Below, in pieces: positions 11,123 through 44,089 of a DNA stretch of 64,000 bases. The translations under genes and the position numbers were made by a program. Source of the stretch: Ampullaceana balthica (taxonomy: Eukaryota > Mollusca > Gastropoda > Lymnaeidae); NCBI GenBank assembly GCA_944989445.1, contig CALYLW010000128.1:781001-845000 (forward strand), given 5' to 3'. The notes beneath the pieces were generated by a model. The model was not told the origin of the DNA, made no database searches, and saw only the letters and a list, made by a program, of their open reading frames with translations. How positions within the stretch are numbered: the stretch's first letter is position 1; the number at the start of each line of letters is the position of its first letter.

Positions 11123-14100
11123 TCCAGATTAGTCATAACTTTTCCCGACTTTCAAGGCCGAGAATTTTTTTTAAAGAATTCCCGACTTTTTCGAAGATTC
11201 CTGAGTGGGAACCATGGTTATATTTAAATTTTAAACGGTCCTTAAAATCGAAAGGTCATTACAACCTTAGGAAAGAGTGATGAAATATTAGGGTTCCGAT
11301 ACGATTCGGATTAATCGTCCCATCACTAATTAACGCTAACTAATTAATCATGTACATAATGAAATTTCAAGCACGTTAATATTTTGCCGCCATATTGGTT
11401 TTCGTTTTAACTCGATCATCGGTTATCTCGACCCCATTTTTCATACCCCAACGCCGTCGACTTAAGCGGTTTCGACTGTATTATACTTAAAAGTCACAAG
11501 TTTTTATAGCATCAATGATTTGTTGAAGCAGAATATTGACCTTGGCGATCTTGACGTAACTGCCAGCCTTAGCCATGTCCCCTGATTGTTTAGCCATCAG
11601 TGCAGCTTTCCTGTACTCATCTCTTTTAGCAAGCAACACTTGCTTTGTGTCTGAGGGTCAACGTTAATGAAGCAACATGTAAACAACAGTTTCTTATAGG
11701 CTTAGAGTGTCACATTTAGGATCTTGAGAAAAAAAAACAAACCAGATTATGGAAACCATTGTTAAACTTTGTTTAATTCCATATTTAAAAAAAGGTGATT
11801 TCAAACCCAATATTCTTGAAAAATAGATTTCTTCTATATTAATAAGGTAAACAAGTCTTGCAAACAGAAATTTGACTTAAATAACGGATTTAGATATTTA
11901 AAAAAGATTTTTTTTTAAATTGGTTTGAAAAATATTTGAATACTCTGGTAAGATCAAGAGTCAAAAGTAATTTTATACAGATACTCACTATTGACAGGTC
12001 CAGCTGATGCAGGCATTGGTAGATTCCCTGATGAATTGGCTGGTGATACTGCTGTAAAAACAATGAGAGTTGTTCAGTTGTTTGTAGACAGTTAATCTCA
12101 TTAAAGGATGAAATAATTTACTATAATATCTATTTTAGTTAGTTTGTTTTATAAGAGGATATTTATTTGTGGCATAAAAATGTTGTCAACTGATGAATTT
12201 TGTAACAAAATGAATTTGAAGAAGCCATCAATCAACATCATGAATTTTATTCCAAATTGGATAATTCTAAGAATTAAGGGTCCATTTATATGCGGGTATT
12301 TGTGGTCTTTTTTTAAAAACAAAAAGCTGGGATTGTGCACCTTATTATAAATAATGTAATATATGTCATTTGTGTGTGCTTAAACCTATATTTAAAATGC
12401 ATTTTCCGATAACAAGCCATTTTACCTTCCAAATCCAGAAGCCCATAGACAGTACATGCAAGTTTAAGCTTACCATTACTCGGCTGAGCTAGAGATGGAG
12501 GATTGTCCTGTGTGACACTGCCTGAAGGCTCCAGAGCCACACTTGAACCCATAGCTACAGGAGGAGGAATATCTTCTTCAGTAATAGGCTTCCCAGCTTT
12601 TGCTTGGCGGAGAAGGTCGCTCAGAGTCTAAAAATCATAAAATGACAATTGAAAATATGAGCAACAATCCAGTGAAAATAAAAAAACCCAGAACAAATCT
12701 CAATTGTTGCCTGCTCTAAAAATCAAATATTAGATTACATTAAATCTACATCATTGCAAGTTTTGACTCAATACAGCAATGCTCAATCACCAATGGAGTT
12801 TTCAATTTAAACAAATACTAAGTCGTGCTCTATTGTATTCTTTGTTAAAAATGTAAGTGTCAGATGCCAATTACAATATTTTTACTTAGCTCTATACAGT
12901 TTTTCACTAAGAAAACAATAATTTGCTTTTAATCATGTTTTGACAAGAACTAAACATCACGGAGAACTTAAGTCAGTGATCAAATAAAATTTAAGTGAAA
13001 AGAACTAAATAGTATTTAAAGAAAACGAAATGTTCCAATGAAACTACCTTTATTCCACGATCTAGTCGTCTCTGCTTGGAACTATCCCCAGCAGTTTTAG
13101 CAGCAGCAGATGCTTGTTTATACATAAACAATCTCTCTTCCAGTACTCCTGCCACACCTCCCACATTGCCCACTGGTCTAGGAGTTGGTGCGGGCCCAGG
13201 TCTAGGTGCAGGGCTTGGGGCTGCTGGAGAAGGCAGTTGTCTGGGCACAGGGGTTGGGTTAATGGTAGGCATCAAGGGTTTGGCAGCAGGTTGAGGAAGG
13301 AACTGTTGTGGTGGAGGGGCTGACTGTTTAGGTGCAGAGTAAGGGGCACTATTTGGAATTTGATTGGTCTCATCATCGTCAAGATCTTCTAGCTCTGCCT
13401 TAAGAAAAGGAACAATTAAAAACAGTTTAATTGTATTTTCAATACACTTCAATTGCAAGAAATCCCCATAACATGTTTTAAAATGTAAAAATCTTCAAAT
13501 TAACTTAATTTTTTTTTAATGAACAAAGATAAGAAGAACATAATAGCTGTGCTATGTTGGTTTCATATTTAAGACCATAATCTTTCTGGATGATAATTCT
13601 TTAAGGGTACAGAATATTTAGTTAGTGAAAGTGAAATGACTTGAGATAAAAATAAAAAAAACAATTTTTCATTTTCATTTTCATAAAGATTTCAGTCAAA
13701 TCCTTCGTTAGTAAGAATTTCATGGTCAAAAGAAGCCCCTGGATAAATTCGTAGCAGTAAAAATTAAATGTTTCTATTTGTAATGGCTCAGTTTACATGC
13801 TTCTATTTTGTAATGGCTGAGTTTACATATTTCTATTTTGTAATGGCTGAGTTTACATGTTTCTATTTTGTAATGGCTGAGTTTACATGTTTCTATTTAG
13901 TAATGGCTGAGTTTACATGTTTCTATTTTGTAATGGCTGAGTTTACATATTTCTATTTTGTAATGGCTGAGTTTATATGTTTCTATTTTGTAATGGCTGA
14001 GTATACCAGCAGATCTGGATCCTCTGTGTCAGAAAGGTCTACATGATCCTCTATGTCAGCTTTCGCGATCTTCTCCAACTCCGCTAAAGATATGTGACCT

Positions 14101-27500: not shown

Positions 27501-30500
27501 ACAGTTCTGTGTGGAATCTCTTACGTTACATTGGTGTGACAGTTCTGTGTGGAATCTCTTATGTTACATTGGTGTGACAGTTCTGTGTGGAATCTCTTAT
27601 GTTACATTGGTGTGACAGTTCTGTGTGGAATCTCTTATGTTACATTGGTGTGACAGTTCTGTGTGGAATCTCTTGTTACATTGGTGTGACAGTTCTGTGT
27701 GGAATCTCTTATGTTACATTGGTGTGACAGTTCTGTGTGGAATCTCTTGTTACATTGTTGTGACAGTTCTGTGTGGAATCTCTTGTTACATTGTTGTGAC
27801 AGTTCTGTGTGGAATCTCTTACGTTACATTGTTGTGACAGTTCTGTGTGGAATCTCTTATGTTACATTGGTGTGACAGTTCTGTGTGGAATCTCTTGTTA
27901 CATTGTTGTGACAGTTCTGTGTGGAATCTCTTGTTACATTGTTGTGACAGTTCTGTGTGGAATCTCTTACGTTACATTGGTGTGACAGTTCTGTGTGGAA
28001 TCTCTTATGTTACATTGGTGTGACAGTTCTGTGTGGAATCTCTTATGTTACATTGGTGTGACAGTTCTGTGTGGAATCTCTTATGTTACATTGGTGTGAC
28101 AGTTCTGTGTGGAATCTCTTATGTTACATTGGTGTGACAGTTCTGTGTGGAATCTCTTATGTTACATTGGTGTGACAGTTCTGTGTGGAATCTCTTATGT
28201 TACATTGGTGTGACAGTTCTGTGTGGAATCTCTTGTTACATTGATGTGACAGTTCTGTGTGGAATCTCTTACGTTACATTGGTGTGACAGTTCTGTGTGG
28301 AATCTCTTATGTTACATTGGTGTGACAGTTCTGTGTGGAATCTCTTATGTTACATTGTTGTGACAGTTCTGTGTGGAATCTCTTATGTTACATTGTTGTG
28401 ACAGTTCTGTGTGGAATCTCTTATGTTACATTGTTGTGACAGTTCTGTGTGGAATCTCTTATGTTACATTGTTGTGACAGTTCTGTGTGGAATCTCTTAT
28501 GTTACATTGTTGTGACAGTTCTGTGTGGAATCTCTTATGTTACATTGTGTGACAGTTCTGTGTGGAATCTCTTACGTTACATTGGTGTGACAGTTCTGTG
28601 TGGAATCTCTTATGTTACATTGGTGTGACAGTTCTGTGTGGAATCTCTTATGTTACATTGGTGTGACAGTTCTGTGTGGAATCTCTTACGTTACATTGGT
28701 GTGACAGTTCTGTGTGGAATCTCTTATGTTACATTGGTGTGACAGTTCTGTGTGGAATCTCTTACGTTACATTGGTGTGACAGTTCTGTGTGGAATCTCT
28801 TATGTTACATTGGTGTGACAGTTCTGTGTGGAATCTCTTATGTTACATTGGTGTGACAGTTCTGTGTGGAATCTCTTGTTACATTGGTGTGACAGTTCTG
28901 TGTGGAATCTCTTATGTTACATTGGTGTGACAGTTCTGTGTGGAATCTCTTACGTTACATTGGTGTGACAGTTCTGTGTGGAATCTCTTATGTTACATTG
29001 GTGTGACAGTTCTGTGTGGAATCTCTTGTTACATTGGTGTGACAGTTCTGTGTGGAATCTCTTGTTACATTGGTGTGACAGTTCTGTGTGGAATCTCTTG
29101 TTACATTGGTGTGACAGTTCTGTGTGGAATCTCTTATGTTACAGCGGCTAGGAGAAATGACTGAACACTTCCCAGAGGTCAACATTCATAACTTCAACAC
29201 TCGTCTTGGTGTGACCATCGGGAGAATGTTGACTTGTTTGTTTCCACACAGACCAAACTACCAAGGCAGACGAGTGGTGACCTTTCACAATCAGAGGGAT
29301 TATATCTTTTTTAGACATCACAGGTAATACCATCACAATAGTCATCAATAGAGATATTGTAGATCTGCAGGTAATAATACCAACATGTTAATCTACATAG
29401 ACCTGGTCTGGTAGGGGATAGAAAGTAATTGTATTGGAAGCCTAGTTATAGTGCAAGACTTATCCAGGTGTTATAAAGTTAATCAAGGTGTATACATTTC
29501 TGTTGAGGAAAGTAGCTGTTTCCATGTTTTGTGATTTGGATGATCTTATGGGTTGATAAAAATATTTCTTTTACACCTGGCGCCCTTTTTCTATACTAAT
29601 GATCTAAAATTAATTACTGATTTCAAATGAAAACTCAGACAAATTTCATCTAAGTACTAATTAGTAGCACTATTATAAAGTTCATGGAAAAAGAAGCATT
29701 AATTGTTTAAATTGTTGCCCTTTGTCAGATACCAGTTCAGAAACACAGAAAAAGTGAGTTTACAAGAACTGGGTCCCAGGTTTCTACTGCGTCTACGATC
29801 ACTTCAAAAAGGAACTTTTGATTCTAAGTCTGGGATGTACCTGTGGATTCACAAGGTAAGTTAATCTCAACTTGGGATTGTCTTAGAAATCATTATATCA
29901 TTTATTTATACAATACTTTGTCACTAACAAAAATAAAAGTGTTTTATTCATATACCTATCACGAAAATATGGAAGTTGGCCATGAGATCAGAGACACTTG
30001 TCGACAATTAGAGATCAAAGCTGAGATATTCAAATTTTTTGTTCTGTACAAGGTTGTGGTATTGAATGAGTGTCACATGCCTCAGTTATGTTTGTTTTGT
30101 TGTTCTGTAACTAATTTGTTGTTCTGTAACTTATTTGTTGTTCTGTAACTAATTTGTTGTTCTGTAACTAATTTGTTGTTCTGTAACTAATTTGTTGTTC
30201 TGTAACTAATTTGTTGTTCTGTATAGGCCTGTCAACGTGTTCCCGGGTACCCGTTGCAGAGCAATTACCCAGATAGTAAAATTGCGCCCGAGTACCTGTG
30301 AAAATGTTACTGCAATGTCTATAACAACGGTGTTCCAACTGTGTATTCACATTTCGGCTTGCAAATAATTTATCAAATTAAAACTTTTCGTTTGAAATAT
30401 ATACTGTGAAATACGCTTAACATAAAATCGCTTAAAAAGAAAAAAACTGTCAAAAGGAAATAAAACACTGTCCCGACAAACTTCAATGTATTTTAAAACA

Positions 30501-31440
30501 CTTTTTTTTCTTGGAACATGAAACAAAAATCATTTAAAACAAAAAGGTTTTGGTTCTTTGAATTGTTCCAGTTAGGAAAATAGAACACAACACTGATAAT
30601 TAGGAAGGGCAGGAAATGGCAGAAATGACCATGGCTTTATTTTTGAAATACTAGCACTTCCGATTGAGACGAGCCAATGTTGTTTATCTCATCCCCCCAC
30701 ACACAATCTCCTTTCTCCACTCCTATTCCCACCATACTTTTAAAAAAAAACACCTGCTATATTCTTTGGTTTTAAAAAAATAAAAAATTTCAATAGTTGA
30801 ATGATTTTCAGTATACATGTAATAACAAAAATAAATGCTGGGGGATGGGTTGACTCAGTAGGGCCAAGTCCCGGAAAGTTTTGTTAATTACAACAGTTTT
30901 CAGCTTTGAACTCGAAATAACCCGCAATGTCATTATACATTTACCACCCATTTTCTTATACGATTTTGTTTAGCCCCACCCCCCCCCCAACCACCCTCTT
31001 AAAAAAATATTAACATTGCACTTTGGCACCCCTCTACTCATTGTTTTTACACCACTGTACTATGGTAGTATTTCAATGTTATCATTTTTACATCACTGAT
31101 TCGTTACATCTAAATTTGCATTTCCATAAATAAACAAAGAAGTATAAGGCTAATAGCGGGCACGACGGCGAAAATTTTGAATCATTTCGAACGAGTAACC
31201 CGAGTACCCGTTCAAGTTTTGGATGGGTATCTGGGCAGCTTTTTTCAACAATATTGACAGACCTAGTTCTGTAACTAATTTGTTGTTCTGTAACTAATTT
31301 GTTGTTCTGTAACTAATTTGTTGTTCTGTAAATAATTTGTTGTTCTGTAAATAATTTGTTGTTCTGTAACTAATTTGTCATTGATAATTTCTTTTCAGCG
31401 CCATGAAATGGACACCAGTAGAAGAAAGTTCCATCTCTAG
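18509..31440 (+). CDS. RPF1: RPF1, ribosome production factor 1 (Brix domain), 9 exons, complete
   Basis: Exons: 18509-18589, 23275-23331, 23981-24061, 24283-24378, 25182-25335, 26397-26479, 29145-29323, 29729-29855 and 31399-31440, 900 bp in total, giving 299 residues. Phases agree at all eight junctions. The N-terminus IKNKQRR then a Lys/Glu-rich helix, [83 protein letters not shown] and the C-terminal [13 protein letters not shown] match the RPF1 family and its Brix domain (about residues 94-285). RPF1 is known as a nucleolar factor in 27S pre-rRNA processing and 60S subunit assembly. The start at 18509 is the only ATG upstream of the conserved block in this frame; the protein lacks the roughly 50-residue N-terminal extension of the human protein. 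The exon 3 acceptor (ATTATGAAG) has almost no pyrimidine tract. An AATAAA lies at 31466-31471, 26 bp past the stop. Confidence 0.93.
18729..19590 (+). mobile_element. 5'-truncated LINE 3' end with GATAA tail
   Basis: An open frame to the stop at 19512 encodes the C-terminal part of a non-LTR reverse transcriptase protein ([58 protein letters not shown]). The catalytic region is absent. The 3' UTR has a stem GACGC...CTTCT/AGAAG...GCGTC, then tandem GATAA. It interrupts a copy of the palindromic repeat whose motif AGAGCCTTCCTCAACGG ends at about 18724. A second 3' end of the family is at 52122-52397. Confidence 0.85.
19592..19913. repeat. Near-perfect 320-bp palindrome (foldback repeat with hammerhead-like core)
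   Basis: Two arms of about 160 bp meet at 19752/19753 (AGTAGGGATCCCTACT) with only a few mismatches. The arm contains CCGTTGAGGAAGGCTCTTTG followed by CCGAAACGTT (complement of 19638-19664), which resembles a hammerhead ribozyme core (C/UUGANGA, stem II, GAAA), as found in Penelope-like retroelements. A single arm of the same repeat occurs at 42930-43105, so the palindrome is two copies in inverted orientation. Confidence 0.85.
19914..21808. other. RPF1 intron 1 spacer with an old relative of the palindromic repeat
   Basis: The right flank of the palindrome (AAGCCTGATTGCAGTCTC) recurs at about 21630-21648. A diverged copy lies at about 20175-20330 (GGATTTCACAGCAGCTAAG ... TTTGCTGAAACATTTGCTG). 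The rest is AT-rich and unassigned. Confidence 0.45.
21809..22974. mobile_element. Tigger/pogo-like non-autonomous DNA transposon, copy 2 (RPF1 intron 1)
   Basis: Ends CAGTCTAACCCAGTTATC and AACCGGGTTCAACTG are flanked by TA. Interior blocks, for example GAACCGCCAAATTCTCTCTT and GAGCACAAAAGAGGGCCAAA, match copy 1 at 9908-11478. A SINE lies inside at 22173-22451. Confidence 0.8.
22173..22451 (+). mobile_element. tRNA-derived SINE sharing the LINE 3' tail
   Basis: The head GACGCGGTGGTCGAGTGG resembles Ser/Leu-type tRNA starts and holds the A box; the B box is GGTTCAAATCC at 22223-22233. A GC-rich body follows. The 3' end (GACGCAACTATCTTCTGCAT then AGAAGGAGCGTCTGTA and GATAA repeats) is nearly the same as the LINE tail at 19531-19590. 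GACGCG occurs at both borders (22173-22178, 22452-22457) and may be part of the target duplication. The related Tigger copy at 9908-11478 lacks this insertion. Confidence 0.85.
24461..25112. repeat. 110-bp tandem repeat in RPF1 intron 4
   Basis: Six nearly identical 110-bp units beginning ACAACAATCTTTCATCGTTT. The array ends about 70 bp before exon 5. Confidence 0.95.
25394..25693 (+). mobile_element. Possible solo LTR in RPF1 intron 5
   Basis: About 300 bp beginning TGTGTCGAGGTGAGAATCCC and ending CTAGACAACGACGCCACA, with AATAAA at 25600-25605. The ends resemble the LTR at 1375-1840 in style (TGTC...GAGAATC / ...CGCMACA). I could not find a matching 5-bp target duplication, so the call is tentative. 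Confidence 0.5.
26070..26100. mobile_element. hAT-like terminal fragment in RPF1 intron 5
   Basis: GGGCCGGACTTAGGACACCC followed by CTG resembles the right end of a hAT MITE (reverse complement CAGGGGTGTCC). The matching left end was not found. Confidence 0.3.
26708..29144. repeat. 38/36-bp minisatellite filling RPF1 intron 6
   Basis: About 64 copies of a unit containing TGTGACAGTTCTGTGTGGAA and CTCTTATGTTACATTG; a two-base shorter form has CTCTTGTTACATTG. The last unit is cut at TTATGTTACAG, which is the acceptor of exon 7 (exon begins 29145). The array therefore abuts the 3' splice site. Confidence 0.96.
30103..30223. repeat. 19-bp minisatellite in RPF1 intron 8, left block
   Basis: About six copies of TTCTGTAACTAATTTGTTG. 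It continues at 31266-31378 after a 1.04-kb hAT insertion. Confidence 0.95.
30224..31265. mobile_element. hAT non-autonomous element inserted in the intron 8 array
   Basis: Ends TAGGCCTGTCAACGTGTT and AATATTGACAGACCTA are inverted repeats, flanked by identical 8-bp GTTCTGTA (30216-30223 and 31266-31273). Subterminal GGGTACCCG / CGGGTACTCG blocks are also inverted. No transposase is visible. Confidence 0.85.
31266..31378. repeat. 19-bp minisatellite in RPF1 intron 8, right block
   Basis: About six copies of the TTCTGTAACTAATTTGTTG unit, ending about 20 bp before the exon 9 acceptor. Confidence 0.95.
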
Positions 31441-33060: not shown

Positions 33061-36045
33061 TCAGGATGCAGAGGTGTAACTAGGTTTTCGGCGCCCTTGA
33101 TAAATTGACAAGTTTCAGCTTTGCGATTTTTCATTTGTTAGACAATAATTACGTAGTCTGAAAGTGACAGTCATACAACGTGAATATAAAAAAATGCGTA
33201 AGACAGGAACAATACTAATTTGCAGTTTATTATAAATTATTTACTAAATAATACCAAATAAATTGAAGGCTAAAACGGGATATTGTTGCATTAATAAAGA
33301 ATACTGCAAAGCTTGAAGTATCATGTATTATAAATAAAAACAATAGTGTCAATGTGTCAAACTCATTATCTCATACATAACGATAGAAACTCAAAATTAA
33401 AAGTAAATTTAAGTATCACTCCACCGATCCAATCATATGTCCTATATCAAAGGTTCAAAGGTTATCTTTTCTTGCTATAATGTTTGCAAAATTGGTGATT
33501 ATTTCATCGAAGTTAATTTGACTGGTAAGTTCACGTTCGATGAAAAGAAGAGCTAGAGATGTTGTGAAGAGCTAGAGATGATGTGAAGAGCTAGAGATGA
33601 TGTGAAGAGCTAGAGATGATGTGAAGAGCTAGAGATGATGTGAAGAGCTAGAGATGATGTGAAGAGCTAGAGGTGATGTGAAGAGCTAGAGATGTTGTGA
33701 AGAGCTAGAGATGATGTGAAGAGCTAGAGATGTTGTGAAGAGCTAGAGATGATGTGAAGAGCTAGAGATGATGTGAAGAGCTAGAGATGATGTGAAGAGC
33801 TAGAGATGTTGTGAAGAGCTAGAGATGATGTGAAGAGCTAGAGATGATGTGAAGAGCTAGAGATGTTGTGAAGAGCTAGAGATGATGTGAAGAGCTAGAG
33901 ATGATGTGAATAGCTAGAGATGATGTGAAGAGCTAGAGATGGTGTGAAGAGCTAGAGATGATGTGAAGAGCTAGAGATGGTGTGAAGAGCTAGAGATGGT
34001 GTGAAGAGCTAGAGATGATGTGAAGAGCTAGAGATGGTGTGAAGAGATGGAGATGATGTGAAGAGCTAGAGATGGTGTGAAGAGCTAGAGATGATGTGAA
34101 GAGCTAGAGATGATGTGAAGAGCTAGAGATGGTGTGAAGAGCTAGAGATGATGTGAAGAGCTAGAGATGATGTGAAGAGCTAGAGATGATGTGAAGAGCT
34201 AGAGATGTTGTGAAGAGCTAGAGATGATGTGAAGAGCTAGAGATGATGTGAAGAGCTAGAGATGATGTGAAGAGCTAGAGATGATGTGAAGAGCTAGAGA
34301 TGTTGTGAAGAGCTAGAGATGATGTGAAGAGCTAGAGATGATGTGAAGAGCTAGAGATGATGTGAAGAGCTAGAGATGATGTGAAGAGCTAGAGATGTTG
34401 TGAAGAGCTAGAGATGATGTGAAGAGCTAGAGATGTTGTGAAGAGCTAGAGATGATGTGAAGAGCTAGAGATGATGTGAAGAGCTAGAGATGATGTGAAG
34501 AGCTAGAGATGATGTGAAGAGCTAGAGATGTGTGAAGAGCTAGAGATGATGTGAAGAGCTAGAGATGGTGTGAAGAGCTAGAGATGGTGTGAAGAGCTAG
34601 AGATGATGTGAAGAGCTAGAGATGGTGTGAAGAGATGGAGATGATGTGAAGAGCTAGAGATGATGTGAAGAGCTAGAGATGATGTGAAGAGCTAGAGATG
34701 ATGTGAAGAGCTAGAGATGATGTGAAGAGCTAGAGATGATGTGAAGAGCTAGAGATGTTGTGAAGAGCTAGAGATGATGTGAAGAGCTAGAGATGATGTG
34801 AAGAGCTAGAGATGTTGTGAAGAGCTAGAGATGATGTGAAGAGCTAGAGATGATGTGAATAGCTAGAGATGATGTGAAGAGCTAGAGATGGTGTGAAGAG
34901 CTAGAGATGATGTGAAGAGCTAGAGATGGTGTGAAGAGCTAGAGATGGTGTGAAGAGCTAGAGATGATGTGAAGAGCTAGAGATGGTGTGAAGAGATGGA
35001 GATGATGTGAAGAGCTAGAGATGGTGTGAAGAGCTAGAGATGATGTGAAGAGCTAGAGATGATGTGAAGAGCTAGAGATGGTGTGAAGAGCTAGAGATGA
35101 TGTGAAGAGCTAGAGATGATGTGAAGAGCTAGAGATGATGTGAAGAGCTAGAGATGATGTGAAGAGCTAGAGATGATGTGAAGAGCTAGAGATGTTGTGA
35201 AGAGCTAGAGATGTTGTGAAGAGCTAGAGATGATGTGAAGAGCTAGAGATGATGTGAAGAGCTAGAGATGTTGTGAAGAGCTAGAGATGATGTGAAGAGC
35301 TAGAGATGATGTGAAGAGCTAGAGATGTTGTGAAGAGCTAGAGATGATGTGAAGAGCTAGAGATGATGTGAAGAGCTAGAGATGATGTGAAGAGCTAGAG
35401 ATGGTGTGAAGAGCTAGAGATGATGTGAAGAGCTAGAGATGGTGTGAAGAGCTAGAGCTGGTGTGAAGATCTAGAGATGATGTGCAGAGCTAGAGATGGT
35501 GTGAAGAGATGGAGATGATGTGAAGAGCTAGAGATGGTGTGAAGAGCTAGAGATGATGTGAAGAGCTAGAGATGATGTGAAGAGCTAGAGATGGTGTGAA
35601 GAGCTAGAGATGATGTGAAGAGCTAGAGATGATGTGAAGAGCTAGAGATGATGTGAAGAGCTAGAGATGATGTGAAGAGCTAGAGATGATGTGAAGAGCT
35701 AGAGATGTTGTGAAGAGCTAGAGATGATGTGAAGAGCTAGAGATGATGTGAAGAGCTAGAGATGATGTGAAAAGCTAGAGATGATGTGAAGAGCTAGAGA
35801 TGATGTGAAGAGCTAGAGATGATGTGAAGAGCTTGAGATGATGTGAAGAGCTAGAGATGATGTGAAGAGCTAGAGATGATGTGAAGAGCTAGAGATGATG
35901 TGAAGAGCTAGAGATGATGTGAAGAGCTAGAGATGATGTGAAGAGCTAGAGATGATGTGAAGAGCTAGAGATGGTGTGAAGAGCTAGAGATGATGTGAAG
36001 AGCTAGAGATGGTGTGAAGAGCTAGAGATGATGTGAAGAGCTAGA

Positions 36046-36265
36046 TGTCACATAGCCGAGTGGGCGTGACCTTATTAACTCTGTTTCACAATAAATCTAT
36101 GAGGCACTGTTTGAATAATACAACTTTTAATCACAACTTCTATTTACATTAATTTACATCAGGAATATCTCACGTCCGTAAAATGGAACCATACACTCAG
36201 TCGCCTTGTTTTATTCTCCCTGTCATGTGACCACTAACACTTATTTTTACCTCCCTCACGTGACA
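36046..36265. mobile_element. 220-bp solo-LTR-like insertion, copy 1
   Basis: Starts TGTCACATAGCC and ends CCTCACGTGACA, flanked by CTAGA on both sides (36041-36045, 36266-36270), a 5-bp target duplication. CAATAAA is present. It differs from copies 2 and 3 at a few bases (GCCTTGTTTT; TTATTTTTACC). Confidence 0.75.
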
Positions 36266-38417
36266 CTAGAGATGATGTGAAGAGCTAGAGATGATGCGAA
36301 GAGATAGAGATGATGTGAAGGGCTAGAGATGATGTGAAGAGCTAGAGATGATGCGAAGAGCTAGAGATGATGTGAAGAACTAGAGATGATGTGAAGAGCT
36401 AGAGATGATGTGAAGAGCTAGAGATGATGTGAAGAGCTAGAGATGATGTGAAGAGCTAGAGATGATGTGAAGAGCTAGAGATGATGTGAAGAGCTAGAGA
36501 TGATGTGAAGAGCTAGAGATGATGTGAAGAGCTAGAGATGATGTGAAGAGCTAGAGATGATGTGAAGAGCTAGAGATGATGTGAAGAGCTAGAGATGATG
36601 TGAAGAGCTAGAGATGATGTGAAGAGCTAGAGATGATGTGAAGAGCTACAGATGATGTGAAGAGCTAGAGATGATGTGAAGAGCTAGAGATGATGTGAAG
36701 AGCTAGAGATGATGTGAAGAGCTAGAGATGATGTGAAGAGATGGAGATGATGTGAAGAGCTGGAGATGATGTGAAGAGCTAGAGATGATGTGAAGAGCTA
36801 GAGATGTTGTGAAGAGCTAGAGATGTTGTGAAGAGCTAGAGATGATGTGAAGAGCTAGAGATGGTGTGAAGATCTAGAGATGATGTGAAGAGCTAGAGAT
36901 GGTGTGAAGAGCTAGAGATGATGTGAAGAGCTAGAGATGATGTGAAGAGCTAGAGATGGTGTGAAGAGCTAGAGATGATGTGAAGAGCTAGAGATGATGT
37001 GAAGAGCTAGAGATGATGTGAAGAGCTAGAGATGATGTGAAGAGCTAGAGATGATGTGAAGAGCTAGAGATGTTGTGAAGAGCTAGAGATGTTGTGAAGA
37101 GCTAGAGATGATGTGAAGAGCTAGAGATGATGTGAAGAGCTAGAGATGATGTGAAGAGCTAGAGATGATGTGAAGAGCTAGAGATGATGTGAAGAGCTAG
37201 AGATGATGTGAAGAGCTTGATATGATGTGAAGAGCTAGAGATGATGTGAATAGCTAGAGATGATGTGAAGAGCTAGAGATGATGTGAAGAGCTAGAGATG
37301 ATGTGAAGAGCTAGAGATGATGTGAAGAGCTAGAGATGATGTGAAGAGCTAGAGATGATGTGAAGAGCTAGAGATGATGTGAAGAGCTAGAGATGATGTG
37401 AAGAGCTAGAGATGGTGTGAAGAGCTAGAGATGATGTGAAGAGCTAGAGATGGTGTGAAGAGCTAGAGATGATGTGAAGAGCTAGAGATGATGTGAAGAG
37501 CTAGAGATGATGTGAAGAGCTAGAGATGATGTGAAGAGCTAGAGATGATGTGAAGAGCTAGAGATGATGTGAAGAGCTAGAGATGATGTGAAGAGCTAGA
37601 GATGGTGTGAAGAGCTAGAGATGATGTGAAGAGCTAGAGATGATGTGAAGAGCTACAGATGATGTGAAGAGCTACAGATGATGTGAAGAGCTAGAGATGA
37701 TGTGAAGAGCTAGAGATGATGTGAAGAGCTAGAGATGATGTGAAGAGCTAGAGATGGTGTGAAGAGCTAGAGATGATGTGAAGAGCTAGAGATGATGTGA
37801 AGAGCTACAGATGATGTGAAGAGCTACAGATGATGTGAAGAGCTAGAGATGATGTGAAGAGCTAGAGATGATGTGAAGAGCTAGAGATGATGTGAAGAGC
37901 TAGAGATGATGTGAAGAGCTAGAGATGATGTGAAGAGCTAGAGATGATGTGAAGAGCTAGAGATAATGTGAAGAGCTAGAGATGATGTGAAGAGCTAGAG
38001 ATGATGTGAAGAGCTAGAGATGGTGTGAAGAGCTAGGGATGTTGTGAAGAGCTAGAGATGATGTGAAGAGCTACAGATGATGTGAAGAGCTAGAGATGAT
38101 GTGAAGAGCTAGAGATGATGTGAAGAGCTAGAGATGATGTGAAGAGCTAGAGATGATGTGAAGAGCTAGAGATGATGTGAAGAGCTAGAGATGATGTGAA
38201 GAGCTAGAGATGATGTGAAGAGCTAGAGATGGTGTGAAGAGCTAGGGATGTTGTGAAGAGCTAGAGATGATGTGAAGAGCTAGAGATGATGTGAAGAGCT
38301 AGAGATGGTGTGAAGAGCTAGAGATGGCGTGAAGAGCTAGAGATGATGTGAAGAGCTAGAGATGATGTGAAGAGCTAGAGATGGTGTGAAGAGCTAGAGA
38401 TGATGTGAAGAGCTAGA

Positions 38418-38637
38418 TGTCACATAGCCGAGTGGGCGTGACCTTATTAACTCTGTTTCACAATAAATCTATGAGGCACTGTTTGAATAATACAACTTTT
38501 AATCACAACTTCTATTTACATTAATTTACATCAGGAATATCTCACGTCCGTAAAATGGAACCATACACTCAGTCGCCATGTTTTATTCTCCCTGTCATGT
38601 GACCACTAACACTTATAGTTACCTCCCTCACGTGACA
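38418..38637. mobile_element. 220-bp solo-LTR-like insertion, copy 2
   Basis: Same ends and CTAGA duplication as copy 1. The flanking variant units match those of copy 3, so this copy and copy 3 arose by duplication of a larger block. Confidence 0.75.
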
Positions 38638-39383
38638 CTAGAGATGATGTGAAGAGCTAGAAATGATGTGAAGAGCTAGAGATGGTGTGAAGAGCTATAG
38701 ATGATGTGAAGAGCTAGAGATGGTGTGAAGAGGTAGACATGGTGTGAAGAGCTAGAGATGATGTGAAGAGCTAGAGATGATGTGAAGAGCTAGAGATGAT
38801 GTGAAGAGCTAGAGATGATGTGAAGAGCTAGAGATGATGTGAAGAGCTAGAGATGATGCGAAGAGATAGAGATGATGTGAAGAGCTAGAGATGATGTGAA
38901 GAGCTAGAGATGATGTGAAGAGCTAGAGATGATGTGAAGAGCTAGAGATAATGTGAAGAGCTAGAGATGATGTGAAGAGCTAGAGATGATGTGAAGAGCT
39001 AGAGATAGTGTGAAGAGCTAGGGATGTTGTGAAGAGCTAGAGATGATGTGAAGAGCTACAGATGATGTGAAGAGCTAGAGATGATGTGAAGAGCTAGAGA
39101 TGATGTGAAGAGCTAGAGATGATGTGAAGAGCTAGAGATGATGTGAAGAGCTAGAGATGATGTGAAGAGCTAGAGATGATGTGAAGAGCTAGAGATGATG
39201 TGAAGAGCTAGAGATGGTGTGAAGAGCTAGGGATTTTGTGAAGAGCTAGAGATGATGTGAAGAGCTAGAGATGGTGTGAAGAGCTAGAGATGGCGTGAAG
39301 AGCTAGAGATGATGTGAAGAGCTAGAGATGATGTGAAGAGCTAGAGATGGTGTGAAGAGCTAGAGATGATGTGAAGAGCTAGA

Positions 39384-39603
39384 TGTCACATAGCCGAGTG
39401 GGCGTGACCTTATTAACTCTGTTTCACAATAAATCTATGAGGCACTGTTTGAATAATACAACTTTTAATCACAACTTCTATTTACATTAATTTACATCAG
39501 GAATATCTCACGTCCGTAAAATGGAACCATACACTCAGTCGCCATGTTTTATTCTCCCTGTCATGTGACCACTAACACTTATAGTTACCTCCCTCACGTG
39601 ACA
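39384..39603. mobile_element. 220-bp solo-LTR-like insertion, copy 3
   Basis: Same ends and CTAGA duplication. The copy 2 to copy 3 distance is 966 bp, equal to 225 plus 39 units of 19 bp. The downstream variant series (AGAAATG, CTATAGATG, GGTAGACATGG) is shared with copy 2. Confidence 0.75.
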
Positions 39604-42020
39604 CTAGAGATGATGTGAAGAGCTAGAAATGATGTGAAGAGCTAGAGATGGTGTGAAGAGCTATAGATGATGTGAAGAGCTAGAGATGGTGTGAAGAGGT
39701 AGACATGGTGTGAAGAGCTAGAGATGATGTGAAGAGCTAGAGATGATGTGAAGAGCTAGAGATGATGTGAAGAGCTAGAGATGATGTGAAGAACTAGAGA
39801 TGATGTGAATAGCTAGAGATGATGTGAAGAGCTAGAGATGATGCGAAGAGATAGAGATGATGTGAAGAGCTAGAGATGATGTGAAGAGCTAGAGATGATG
39901 TGAAGAGCTAGAGATGATGTGAAGAGCTAGAGATGATGTGAAGAGCTAGAGATGATATGAAGAGCTAGAGATGATGTGAAGAGCTAGAGATGATGTGAAG
40001 AGCTAGAGATGATGTGAAGAGCTAGAGATGATGTGAAGAGCTAGAGATGATGTGAAGAGCTAGAGATGATGTGAAGAGCTAGAGATGATGTGAAGAGCTA
40101 GAGATGATGTGAAGAGCTAGAGATGATGTGAAGAGCTAGAGATGATGTGAAGAGCTAGAGATGATGTGAAGAGCTAGAGATGATATGAAGAGCTAGAGAT
40201 GATGTGAAGAGCTAGAGATGATGTGAAGAGCTAGAGATGATGTGAAGAGCTAGAGATGATGTGAAGAGCTAGAGATGATGTGAAGAGCTAGAGATGATGT
40301 GAAGAGCTAGAGATGATGTGAAGAGCTAGAGATGATGTGTGTTGTTGACCTGACGTCGATCTCAAGTAATTTTTGATAATTTTTATTTTGCTGAAATTCC
40401 TTTCAGTAGTGGCTACTGTGGCTGGCATTGTAAGAAATGATTTTAGAGCTCGTTCGATATTCGGTTACGATTCTTGGCATTCCCATGTAGCGAGAACATT
40501 TAGAAGATCTAAATGAAACATGACGTCATCAGGTTTTTTGTTTTGCAATAGTTTAATCATTTGGTGTTTAAGGCATTTTATTTCAATTATAAATTGCTCT
40601 TATTTATTTCAGGATATTTGCCTGATAATAGAATATCCTTAGATTCTAAATCTGCCATTGCAAAAGATTGGAATGCTTTGCCAGTCAGAAAGTTAAAGTC
40701 TTCTGCTATATTATTCAGTGAAAGAAATTTGTATTTGAACTGCATCATTATTGAATCAATGATTGCAACAACAAAAAATTGAATTAATCCAAGTTAGGTC
40801 CTTCCTCTTCAGCATGCTCTCCTGGTATTCGTTTTCGTTTTGCTTTCCTTTTTTGAACTGGCTTGATTTTCATTTTAATACATGACATTTCTTCAAGTTT
40901 GGCAATTTTTTTTTATAGATTTCGTTAGTTCTTAGATGTTCAAAGGCATTTAAAAGTCCTTTTATTAACAATGATGATCGGAAAATATCCTGGTCTTTTG
41001 TAGTGCTAAATTGACTTTTTAAAATATTTTTTCCAATATCAAATTCCAAATAGTTATAAACGAAATGAACTTGTAACTATTGATTTTACGGTGCAATGAT
41101 TTAGCAACAGATAATGCATCACCAAGTAAGTGATTATCCTTCATTTCAATTAATACTAAAATAATTTGCTCATATGCAGCACTTACAGCATTTGCTTTGG
41201 AACACCATGTTGTGTCCGCATGTTTCTTTAGGCTGATTTCAGTGACTGTGGATATTTTTTCCTATCTACTAGTTGACGAGGAGAAAACAATTGTACACTT
41301 CCTGTATTGTTCCGAAAATTGTCACATCTGCATCAATGCTGGCCGCTTACACACCTACCAAATTAAGACTATGTATGTGCAGAACATGTAATATATTGAG
41401 CAAGTGGATTCTCTTTTTCAAGTATGGCTTGAATTCCCTTGTACTGCCCTGCCATGTTGGCCCCATTATATTTGCCACGTACATCTTCAAGTGATAAATC
41501 ATTTTGAATTAATGCTGCTTTAATTTCCAAAGGCAATTCCTTCTGTTTTTTCAGTTTTGTTTATGAAACCAACGAAACTCTTTTCAATGGTATATTCTTT
41601 ATCTGACAATTTTAAATACCGAATAATTTCAGCTAATTGTTCTTTGTGAGATACATCCGGAGTGCTATCAAATATTATACTATAATATTTAGCTTCTTGA
41701 ATTTCTTTTATTATTTCACTTTGTAGTTTCGCTGATAACAAAATAATACATTCATTCTGGATTGTTGGCGACAAATAGCTAGTGTGATTTTTAATATGCG
41801 ATTCAAGGCAATTCTTAAAACCAACATCATACTGACACAAATTTTATCAGATTCAAAAATATACCTCCATCTTGTTCGTGTCCATGAAAAGCTAAGTTGT
41901 TTTCAGCACAAAACAGTATACATTTTAATATAAAAATGAGAGATTTAGTGGCGCCCTTTTGAGCTGGCGCCCTTTGCAACTGCCCCGATGCCAACCCGTT
42001 GCTACGCCACTGTCAGGATG

Positions 42021-43794: not shown

Positions 43795-43828
43795 TTATTT
43801 AAATACAAATTTAAAAGTTATAGATTAA

Positions 43829-43892
43829 GTGGCGCCCTTTTTAGCTGGCGCCCTTGGCTACCGCCCCGATGCCAACCCGTTGTTACGCCACT
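43829..43892. mobile_element. Right end of a second hAT copy of the 33069-42012 family
   Basis: GTGGCGCCCTTTTTAGCTGG and CCCGATGCCAACCCGTTG then TTACGCCACTG match the terminal 64 bp of the hAT at 41949-42012. Its left part is displaced by the neighbouring MITE and was not located. Confidence 0.7.
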
Positions 43893-44089
43893 GGTTTCCC
43901 CAGTAGTTTGTTTATTTGCTCAACGTCCCCAATGGGGAAAACACAACCAGATCTTAGGTTGTCCCCCCTTATACTATCTCAGAAGTCTAATAATATCTTT
44001 TATCTAAAAGATGTTAACATGTCAGGGCACCAAAATAATCCCAAAGTTCTCGCCGCTGTATGCGCTATCCCCATAAGTCCCAAAGAACA

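Follow-up and report, generated by a model that had tools for sequence, protein, structure and literature searches.

A hAT element and the array it carries

The window (the whole 64,000-nucleotide stretch analyzed here) contains a DUF4371/ZMYM1-like hAT element on the minus strand at 33069..42012, identified from its ends, its target-site duplication (TSD), Pfam domains, and tblastn of the transposase P0001. In the sense of the element, the 5' terminal inverted repeat reads CAGTGGCGTAGCAAC (41998..42012), while the 3' repeat reads CAGAGGTGTAACTAG on the plus strand (33069..33083); one terminus begins CAGAGGTGTAACTAG and the other, once reverse-complemented, CAGTGGCGTAGCAAC. These short inverted repeats are of the CAG(T/A)GGCGTA kind, a motif typical of hAT ends. 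Consistent with the intact ends and perfect duplication claimed in the earlier note, the 8-bp TSD expected of a hAT, TCAGGATG, is present without mismatch on both the low-coordinate (33061..33068) and high-coordinate (42013..42020) sides. The traits of Helentrons, i.e., no TSD and rolling-circle ends, are not those of the window element, which has an 8-bp TSD and inverted ends. The C-terminal dimerization region (Dimer_Tnp_hAT, PF05699; 40288..40464, minus strand) exceeded its Pfam cut-off (E 7e-8) and continues into the array. A piece of the DUF4371 domain (41520..41843, minus strand; Pfam and tblastn of P0001) scored 29.3 bits, below the Pfam threshold of 32.1, in this frame-broken copy, and PF14291 is present in the closest homologs. 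P0001 is 77% identical across 97% of the query used, its sequence stopping just short of the array site, and alignment to it showed that the element is internally deleted and non-autonomous, with N-terminal codons absent and the coding frame broken in several places. A solitary 5' end was also found at 43808-43893, which does not flank both sides of the neighboring 14-bp array.

Within the element, an array of ~6.8 kb with a 19-bp period (TRF score 9952) occupies 33547..40339 on the minus strand. As assembled, it comprises 321 in-register units of CACATCATCTCTAGCTCTT (minus-strand sense), of which 207 are identical to that sequence, in agreement with a previous estimate of about 320; it also holds three inserts and one extra 18-bp unit. 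A 220-bp insert, which has the TSD TCTAG and short inverted termini (TGTCAC...), interrupts three of the 321 units. Copies 1 (39384..39603) and 2 (38418..38637) are each 98.7% identical to copy 3 (36046..36265), all on the minus strand, and copies 1 and 2 lie 966 bp apart. The insert was duplicated together with a block of the array, revealing that ~1 kb was copied within it. Since the units of the window copy also diverge less than its flanks (2.2% versus 4.0%), growth of the array after insertion is supported. The earlier description of a satellite in a hAT frame holds, although it missed the three copies of the small inserted element and the broken coding frame.

Each 19-bp unit codes for T-S-S-L-A-L, six residues of the dimerization region of the hAT transposase. 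Translation confirmed that the transposase frame runs into the array, as IKNYLRSTSGQQHTSSLAL, and resumes on the far side, as TTSLALLFIEREL...KDNL, before a stop codon at 33455-33457, as had been proposed; the C-terminal codons beyond the array (LFIERELTSQINFDEIITNFANIIARKDNL) span 33455..33546 on the minus strand. Four of the five arrays translated from the family (n = 3, 4, 6, and 14) end the frame at SSLALHIISSSSHHL*, and the fifth (n = 2) loses it by frameshift. The arrays hence remove the C-terminus of the transposase. Reading the array as an intron (splice sites ...TCAG/GT and CTAG/) would keep the frame on paper, but at the loss of eight residues of the conserved motif, and was set aside.

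One-unit copies and further arrays across the genome

We scrutinized the 1.10-Gb genome for the family with a 39-base single-unit pattern, allowing ≤3 mismatches. One unit was present at 312 places, while reversed control patterns for this and the other pattern searches returned no matches genome-wide. A single unit with its context reads QQRTSSLALLSIE, the conserved dimerization motif. The 30 single-unit loci that were extracted are all exact pattern matches, so that their reading as QQRTSSLALLSIE follows from the search itself; the same frame was stop-free across the 54 codons examined in 18 of them. The motif was contiguous at the array site in 189 of 214 homologs (≤9 of 22 residues differing), and 188 of these 189 proteins end 21-35 residues beyond it, leaving no space for an array. 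P0002 and other homologs carry the same dimerization motif as here, and a distant hAT of the same genome (L017) has GQDRLSDLALLIIE once. DUF4371/ZMYM1-like homologs that keep the motif thus have it a single time, whereas the window copy has 321 units. The 312 genomic places and the homologous proteins together bear out the claim that this stretch is encoded by the unit and that the ancestor had one copy, and one unit was found at the codon position in related hAT copies, where the earlier note had suggested looking. A coding stretch that is single in relatives is also what characterizes transposon-derived satellites of the Jozin type.

Arrays were not confined to the window. The left junction followed by two or more units occurred at 88 places, two of which proved to be single, leaving 86 arrays. 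Exactly two units were present at eight places, one of them outside the 86, and three further arrays that lacked a match to the junction pattern were read by hand and also lie inside the hAT family. At least 90 family copies (the 86 plus four found otherwise) therefore have an array of two or more units at this site, a count that may include allelic pairs, since some loci may be represented by both alleles in the assembly (the flanks of L070 and L073 are identical). The search patterns favor the 19-bp unit length, so duplications of other lengths at this site would escape. In an unanchored search, all eight arrays among the matches listed sit at these codons in the same hAT family. Of 49 arrays read, 35 were complete, spanning 2 to 321 units, and every one of these had an identical register with the same two boundaries. 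TSDs differed between copies; both ends were found for six of nine copies, with five perfect TSDs (including that of the window) and one matching at 7 of 8 positions. The idea of an in situ expansion therefore stands as regards growth after insertion, but not as one array in one element.

These data leave little room for two alternatives. Capture of a pre-existing satellite by a hAT, making the codon match secondary, is highly improbable: nothing was found in its favor, the unit consists of the transposase's own codons, single at 312 places in agreement with homologous proteins, and no array free of the element, or outside the family, occurred among the eight listed and three hand-read arrays found without the junction pattern. 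It is equally hard to credit that mis-assembly accounts for the length of the array, or for all of the arrays. Of all the data, the sizes of long arrays are the least certain, but at least 90 arrays are spread over many contigs, with private variants, a strict register, and ordered blocks of variants.

Probable birth, transport, and growth of the arrays

We favor, at a probability of roughly 70%, a reading in which the window array is an in-register repeat derived from codons, the duplication having arisen once or a few times in the family, spread by transposition, and inflated or collapsed in each insertion. This is founded directly on the observed single-unit form, the common register, and the location of arrays in separate insertions with differing TSDs. 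A tandem duplication of the T-S-S-L-A-L codons would have been carried to new sites by transposing non-autonomous copies, presumably mobilized in trans by the transposase of a one-unit copy. Within each insertion it may then have been inflated by replication slippage and unequal exchange, while some arrays would have collapsed back to one unit in place, such that few births plus collapses, and not dozens of births, would account for the pattern.

Unit variants point to transport. L012 and L056, neighbors on the tree (99/76), have the same doubly changed last unit, indicating that arrays travelled inside the element. L011 and L066 have a single last-unit change in common, which L068 carries plus one more, and the three form one weakly supported group (86/0); the L011/L066 change also occurs, together with another, in the unrelated L075 and is therefore able to recur. 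The window copy belongs to a group dominated by arrays (19, against 3 singles) and so probably landed with an array already, which then expanded. Units are younger than flanks in eight of nine copies compared, as judged from their lower divergence, the exception being L012.

The distribution of arrays on the tree is less easily accommodated. A single clade for array copies was rejected (AU p 3e-40), and the mixing of arrays and singles (19 changes) was barely better than that of shuffled labels (21.4; 74 of 500 shuffles as low), making frequent independent births or exchange possible. No clear age difference was detected between array copies and singles (p 0.14), nor any relation between n and branch length (p 0.16). 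This mixing, the recurrence of a last-unit change in L075, and the missing trend with age or n all count against the favored reading.

Such dispersal could reflect duplication of the same 19 bp independently after landing, with fixed ends set by a break- or slip-prone sequence or by repair, in dozens of insertions preserving 1 to 321 units. We consider this possible though doubtful. It would suit the rarity of two-unit copies, which rapid growth of newborn arrays would explain, a surrounding genome rich in tandem arrays (29% of the window), and the single-unit copy L039, in which another stretch of the frame is repeated. Against it, the two boundaries are identical in all 35 complete arrays although the junction shares only one base, and L012 and L056 resemble one array that moved. 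A hairpin in the unit as the cause was likewise not supported, its folding being no better than that of shuffled sequence. Alternatively, gene conversion or ectopic repair may have transferred a single original array to other dispersed copies, which we regard as unlikely. Flanks are ~90% alike (4 to 14% difference among nine copies), enough for recombination, and scatter on the tree combined with a single common register is what exchange would leave; however, 62 of the 89 unit variants occur in a single array each, and the more frequent of the shared variants involve one change, which can recur.

A further point against the favored reading, transposition of few duplications, is the scarcity of two-unit copies (8) relative to one-unit copies (312), which a slow stepwise collapse would not produce unless one unit is the end state. 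How unique sequence turns into an array can rarely be observed, as the single-copy ancestor is usually lost. In this family a conserved protein motif represents that ancestor and makes both the starting point and the boundaries clear. The birth, transport, and inflation of a repeat array can probably all be traced within this one genome, which has more than 300 one-unit matches, a handful of two-unit copies, and ~80 longer arrays. As many of these lie in insertions datable by their flanks, rates of birth, growth, and collapse are measurable. The array disables its source gene yet reached new places, presumably mobilized by one-unit relatives.

Relation to known transposon-borne satellites

The earlier note judged a satellite born from transposase codons unusual. 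Satellites of this origin are already known, as in Chenopodium, where a tnp2 fragment of the CACTA element Jozin gave rise to the satellite CficCl-61-40 (PMC7320549). An array from a hAT transposase frame was, in contrast, absent from the literature searched, including Table 1 of PMC9659126 and passages of PMC12628747, with subscription journals largely outside that search. In Jozin, ~40 bp of transposase coding sequence likewise formed the starting monomer, and the DNA transposon copies carrying the array are deletion derivatives (PMC7320549). Jozin differs in being a plant CACTA element whose 40-bp unit became the most abundant satellite (PMC7320549), whereas the present case involves a hAT and a 19-bp unit that has so far been found only within the element, in a genome where one-unit copies are also numerous. 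In Xenopus tropicalis, a satellite monomer was similarly born and amplified inside a non-autonomous DNA transposon, miDNA4, which is however a Tc1/mariner MITE whose unit is not described as transposase codons in section 4 of a review (PMC9659126). The non-autonomous Cg_HINE Helentrons of Crassostrea gigas resemble our family in that satellite-like arrays are carried inside, and dispersed by, a DNA transposon (PMC7492417). They are rolling-circle elements with units mostly of 140-180 bp and a longest array of ~29 units (PMC7492417), in contrast to the 8-bp TSD, the coding-derived 19-bp unit, and the arrays of up to 321 units described here.

The hAT element and its array in the window

On the minus strand, a hAT element at 33069-42012 has matching ends, is flanked by a perfect 8-bp duplication of its target, TCAGGATG, and is interrupted by a 6,793-bp tandem repeat (33547-40339, minus strand). 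Cut into units, this repeat resolves into 321 strictly in-register copies of CACATCATCTCTAGCTCTT. The intact ends, the target duplication and the roughly 320 19-bp units in the transposase frame claimed in the earlier note are thus all present. Identical units number 207 of the 321, the commonest changes fall at unit position 5 (46 C, 24 A), and one further unit is 18 bp long. Three units of the array are split by the three copies of a 220-bp insert, which has TGTCAC inverted ends and a TCTAG duplication. The first two inserts lie 966 bp apart with variant units in nearly the same order around both, hence a block of the array including the insert was copied. The third, 98.7% identical to either of the others, has only its nearest units in common with them; it could stem from a further block copy or from a separate insertion. 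At window 43808-43893, 1.8 kb outside the element, its 5' end recurs on its own (86 bp, 88% identity).

Upstream of the array, the transposase frame reads IKNYLRSTSGQQHTSSLAL, part of the hAT dimerisation domain, and continues into the array. It exits as TTSLALLFIEREL...KDNL, with a stop codon at 33455-33457, as the note had read it. Among the matches listed, the nearest protein was P0001 (804 aa), a DUF4371/ZMYM1-like transposase homologue with 77% identity to a query built from family copy L009. Alignment to P0001 shows that about 275 codons are missing from the start of the window copy and that its frame shifts in several places. Array copies L013 and L014 retain codons from about 205, so arrays are present in more than one deletion form. 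In the one two-unit copy translated, the frame shifts and then stops; with three or more units, it stops after SSLALHIISSSSHHL in all four copies translated. Array copies therefore lack roughly 30 residues at the C-terminal end of the dimerisation domain, and those compared additionally lack the transposase start; we infer that they were mobilised by a one-unit transposase. The frame of P0001 itself terminates in KNT, immediately short of the site that arrays occupy, and this protein may be another broken copy, given that a one-base loss in the family sequence would yield such an ending.

One unit as the ancestral state and arrays across the family

A 39-base pattern spanning a single unit and both its flanks (up to 3 mismatches) matched 312 places in the 1.10-Gb genome, at least 53 of them exactly among the matches listed, and its reversed control matched none. 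Thirty loci were cut out, all exact matches that consequently read QQRTSSLALLSIE by construction; this frame was stop-free over the 54 codons shown in 18 and contained a stop in 12. Both element ends were seen in eight of the 30, with a perfect 8-bp duplication in six, 7/8 in one and none in one. A like motif occurs in 189 of 214 homologous proteins among the matches listed in two protein searches, 188 of which end 21 to 35 residues beyond it; it was not seen in the other 25, P0001 included. A distant hAT in the same genome likewise has the motif once. Hence one unit at the dimerisation codons is the ancestral state: other hAT copies do carry a single unit at this position, and the genomic matches and homologues bear out the one-unit ancestor proposed earlier. 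The distant hAT survives as DUF4371-type remnants upstream of the L013 copy (sequence L017, 6573-7731), and its single dimerisation motif has a stop codon.

An unanchored two-unit search gave 1,875 + 2,072 matches, those listed covering eight places outside the window, all within the same hAT family and at the same codons. A left-junction pattern, which selects the register at one end and leaves the right end free, found 88 places; two of these were one-unit copies matched by chance, and the remaining 86 are arrays, among them the window array and the eight unanchored places. Exact unit pairs with an atypical base directly after them occur at 27 places, of which 22 fall by position in or near listed arrays (one on contig C271, 6.4 kb from its junction) and five sit on C1585, C1959 and C3184, outside the left-junction list. 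The three arrays on these contigs were read, and all lie within the hAT, each missing 3 bases in or beside the first unit. In arrays L092 and L094, the first unit lacks one ATC, at 16 bp against 19 bp for later units. A two-unit place on C6, matched by the exactly-two-unit pattern, is absent from the other array lists. Two or more units are thus documented in at least 90 family copies, so that array formation is not confined to one element; no array outside the hAT family was found among the eight listed unanchored places and the others read.

Among the 86 left-junction arrays, 49 were read, 35 complete and 14 counted as cut off (36 to 59 units; L053, with 59, just reaches the right flank). 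Complete arrays had two units in five cases, three in three, and otherwise 4, 5, 6, 6, 7, 12, 14, 15, 16, 17, 17, 18, 19, 19, 20, 23, 23, 25, 25, 31, 36, 36, 39, 43, 51, 189 and 321, with an identical right end in 35 of 35. One unit (312 places) is far commoner than exactly two (8 matches), these counts being places in the assembly, where some contigs may be second alleles, and understating diverged copies, which unit patterns miss. Two-unit copies L070 (C1017) and L073 (C2609) have identical flanks and are perhaps two alleles of one insertion.

History of the array copies

Different copies occupy separate sites with their own target duplications, and so moved separately. The main tree included 46 copies with arrays and 26 singles, the latter drawn only from exact pattern matches, after 3 array rows and 4 single rows had been removed for excessive divergence. 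A single clade of arrays was rejected (AU p 3e-40, log-likelihood lower by 310). At least four changes between array and single states are required by well-supported branches and 19 by the whole tree, hardly fewer than with shuffled labels (21.4; 74 of 500 shuffles as low). The result was the same in a smaller tree with 8 arrays and 26 singles, from which 5 rows were left out. Independent births of arrays at a hotspot are a less likely account of these copies: the boundaries of the duplicated stretch have only one base in common, which makes a few births seem more plausible than a recurrent origin with identical ends. Exchange between dispersed hAT copies is slightly less probable still; 62 of 89 unit variants are private to one array.

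Under the favoured reading of few births, the 19-bp stretch of dimerisation codons would have been duplicated and copies with the duplication would then have transposed. At each insertion, slippage and unequal exchange would have altered unit number, up to 321, perhaps with collapse to one unit, where further slippage would be impossible. The window copy belongs to an array-rich, short-branched group (19 arrays, 3 singles; support 88/96). Within it, neighbours L012 (7 units) and L056 (3) have a common doubly changed last unit and, most simply, would have moved as one array that later changed length. A single last-unit change is common to L011 (3 units), L066 (6) and L068 (3, with one more change), a weakly supported group, and also occurs in unrelated L075. 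Across nine copies, units diverge from consensus by 0.3 to 3.7% and flanks by 2.7 to 8.0%, units being younger than flanks in eight. Array copies were not clearly older than singles, and unit number did not track branch length.

Other tandem repeats and known systems

In the window, 21 tandem arrays that do not overlap, their units 14 to 110 bp long, cover 18,664 bases (29%; 21% without the hAT array). The genome looks rich in minisatellites and, because of this coverage, seems to favour array growth. Arrays at 30096-30223 and 31266-31378, 1.0 kb apart, have a common 19-bp unit, TTTGTTGTTCTGTAACTAA, and its rotation, unrelated to the hAT unit. One 31-bp unit forms three arrays within about 15 kb of contig (window 1841-2994 and 5669-6647; neighbouring sequence L020, 3367-5304). 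In L039, a one-unit hAT copy, a 45-bp tandem repeat (3.1 copies, 343-482) appears by eye to be another coding stretch of the same hAT. A proline-rich open frame at window 12991-13494, minus strand, resembles a CC2D1-type gene exon.

Table 1 of a 2022 review (PMC9659126) includes no hAT. Transposase codons are reported to have seeded a satellite in the case of Jozin in Chenopodium (PMC7320549), as in the hAT array, and oyster Helentrons carry arrays within a DNA transposon (PMC7492417), as does this hAT family. Within the literature searched, three features seem to be new: the hAT host, the position of the array inside dimerisation codons, and a single genome with a series of unit numbers ranging from 1 to 321.
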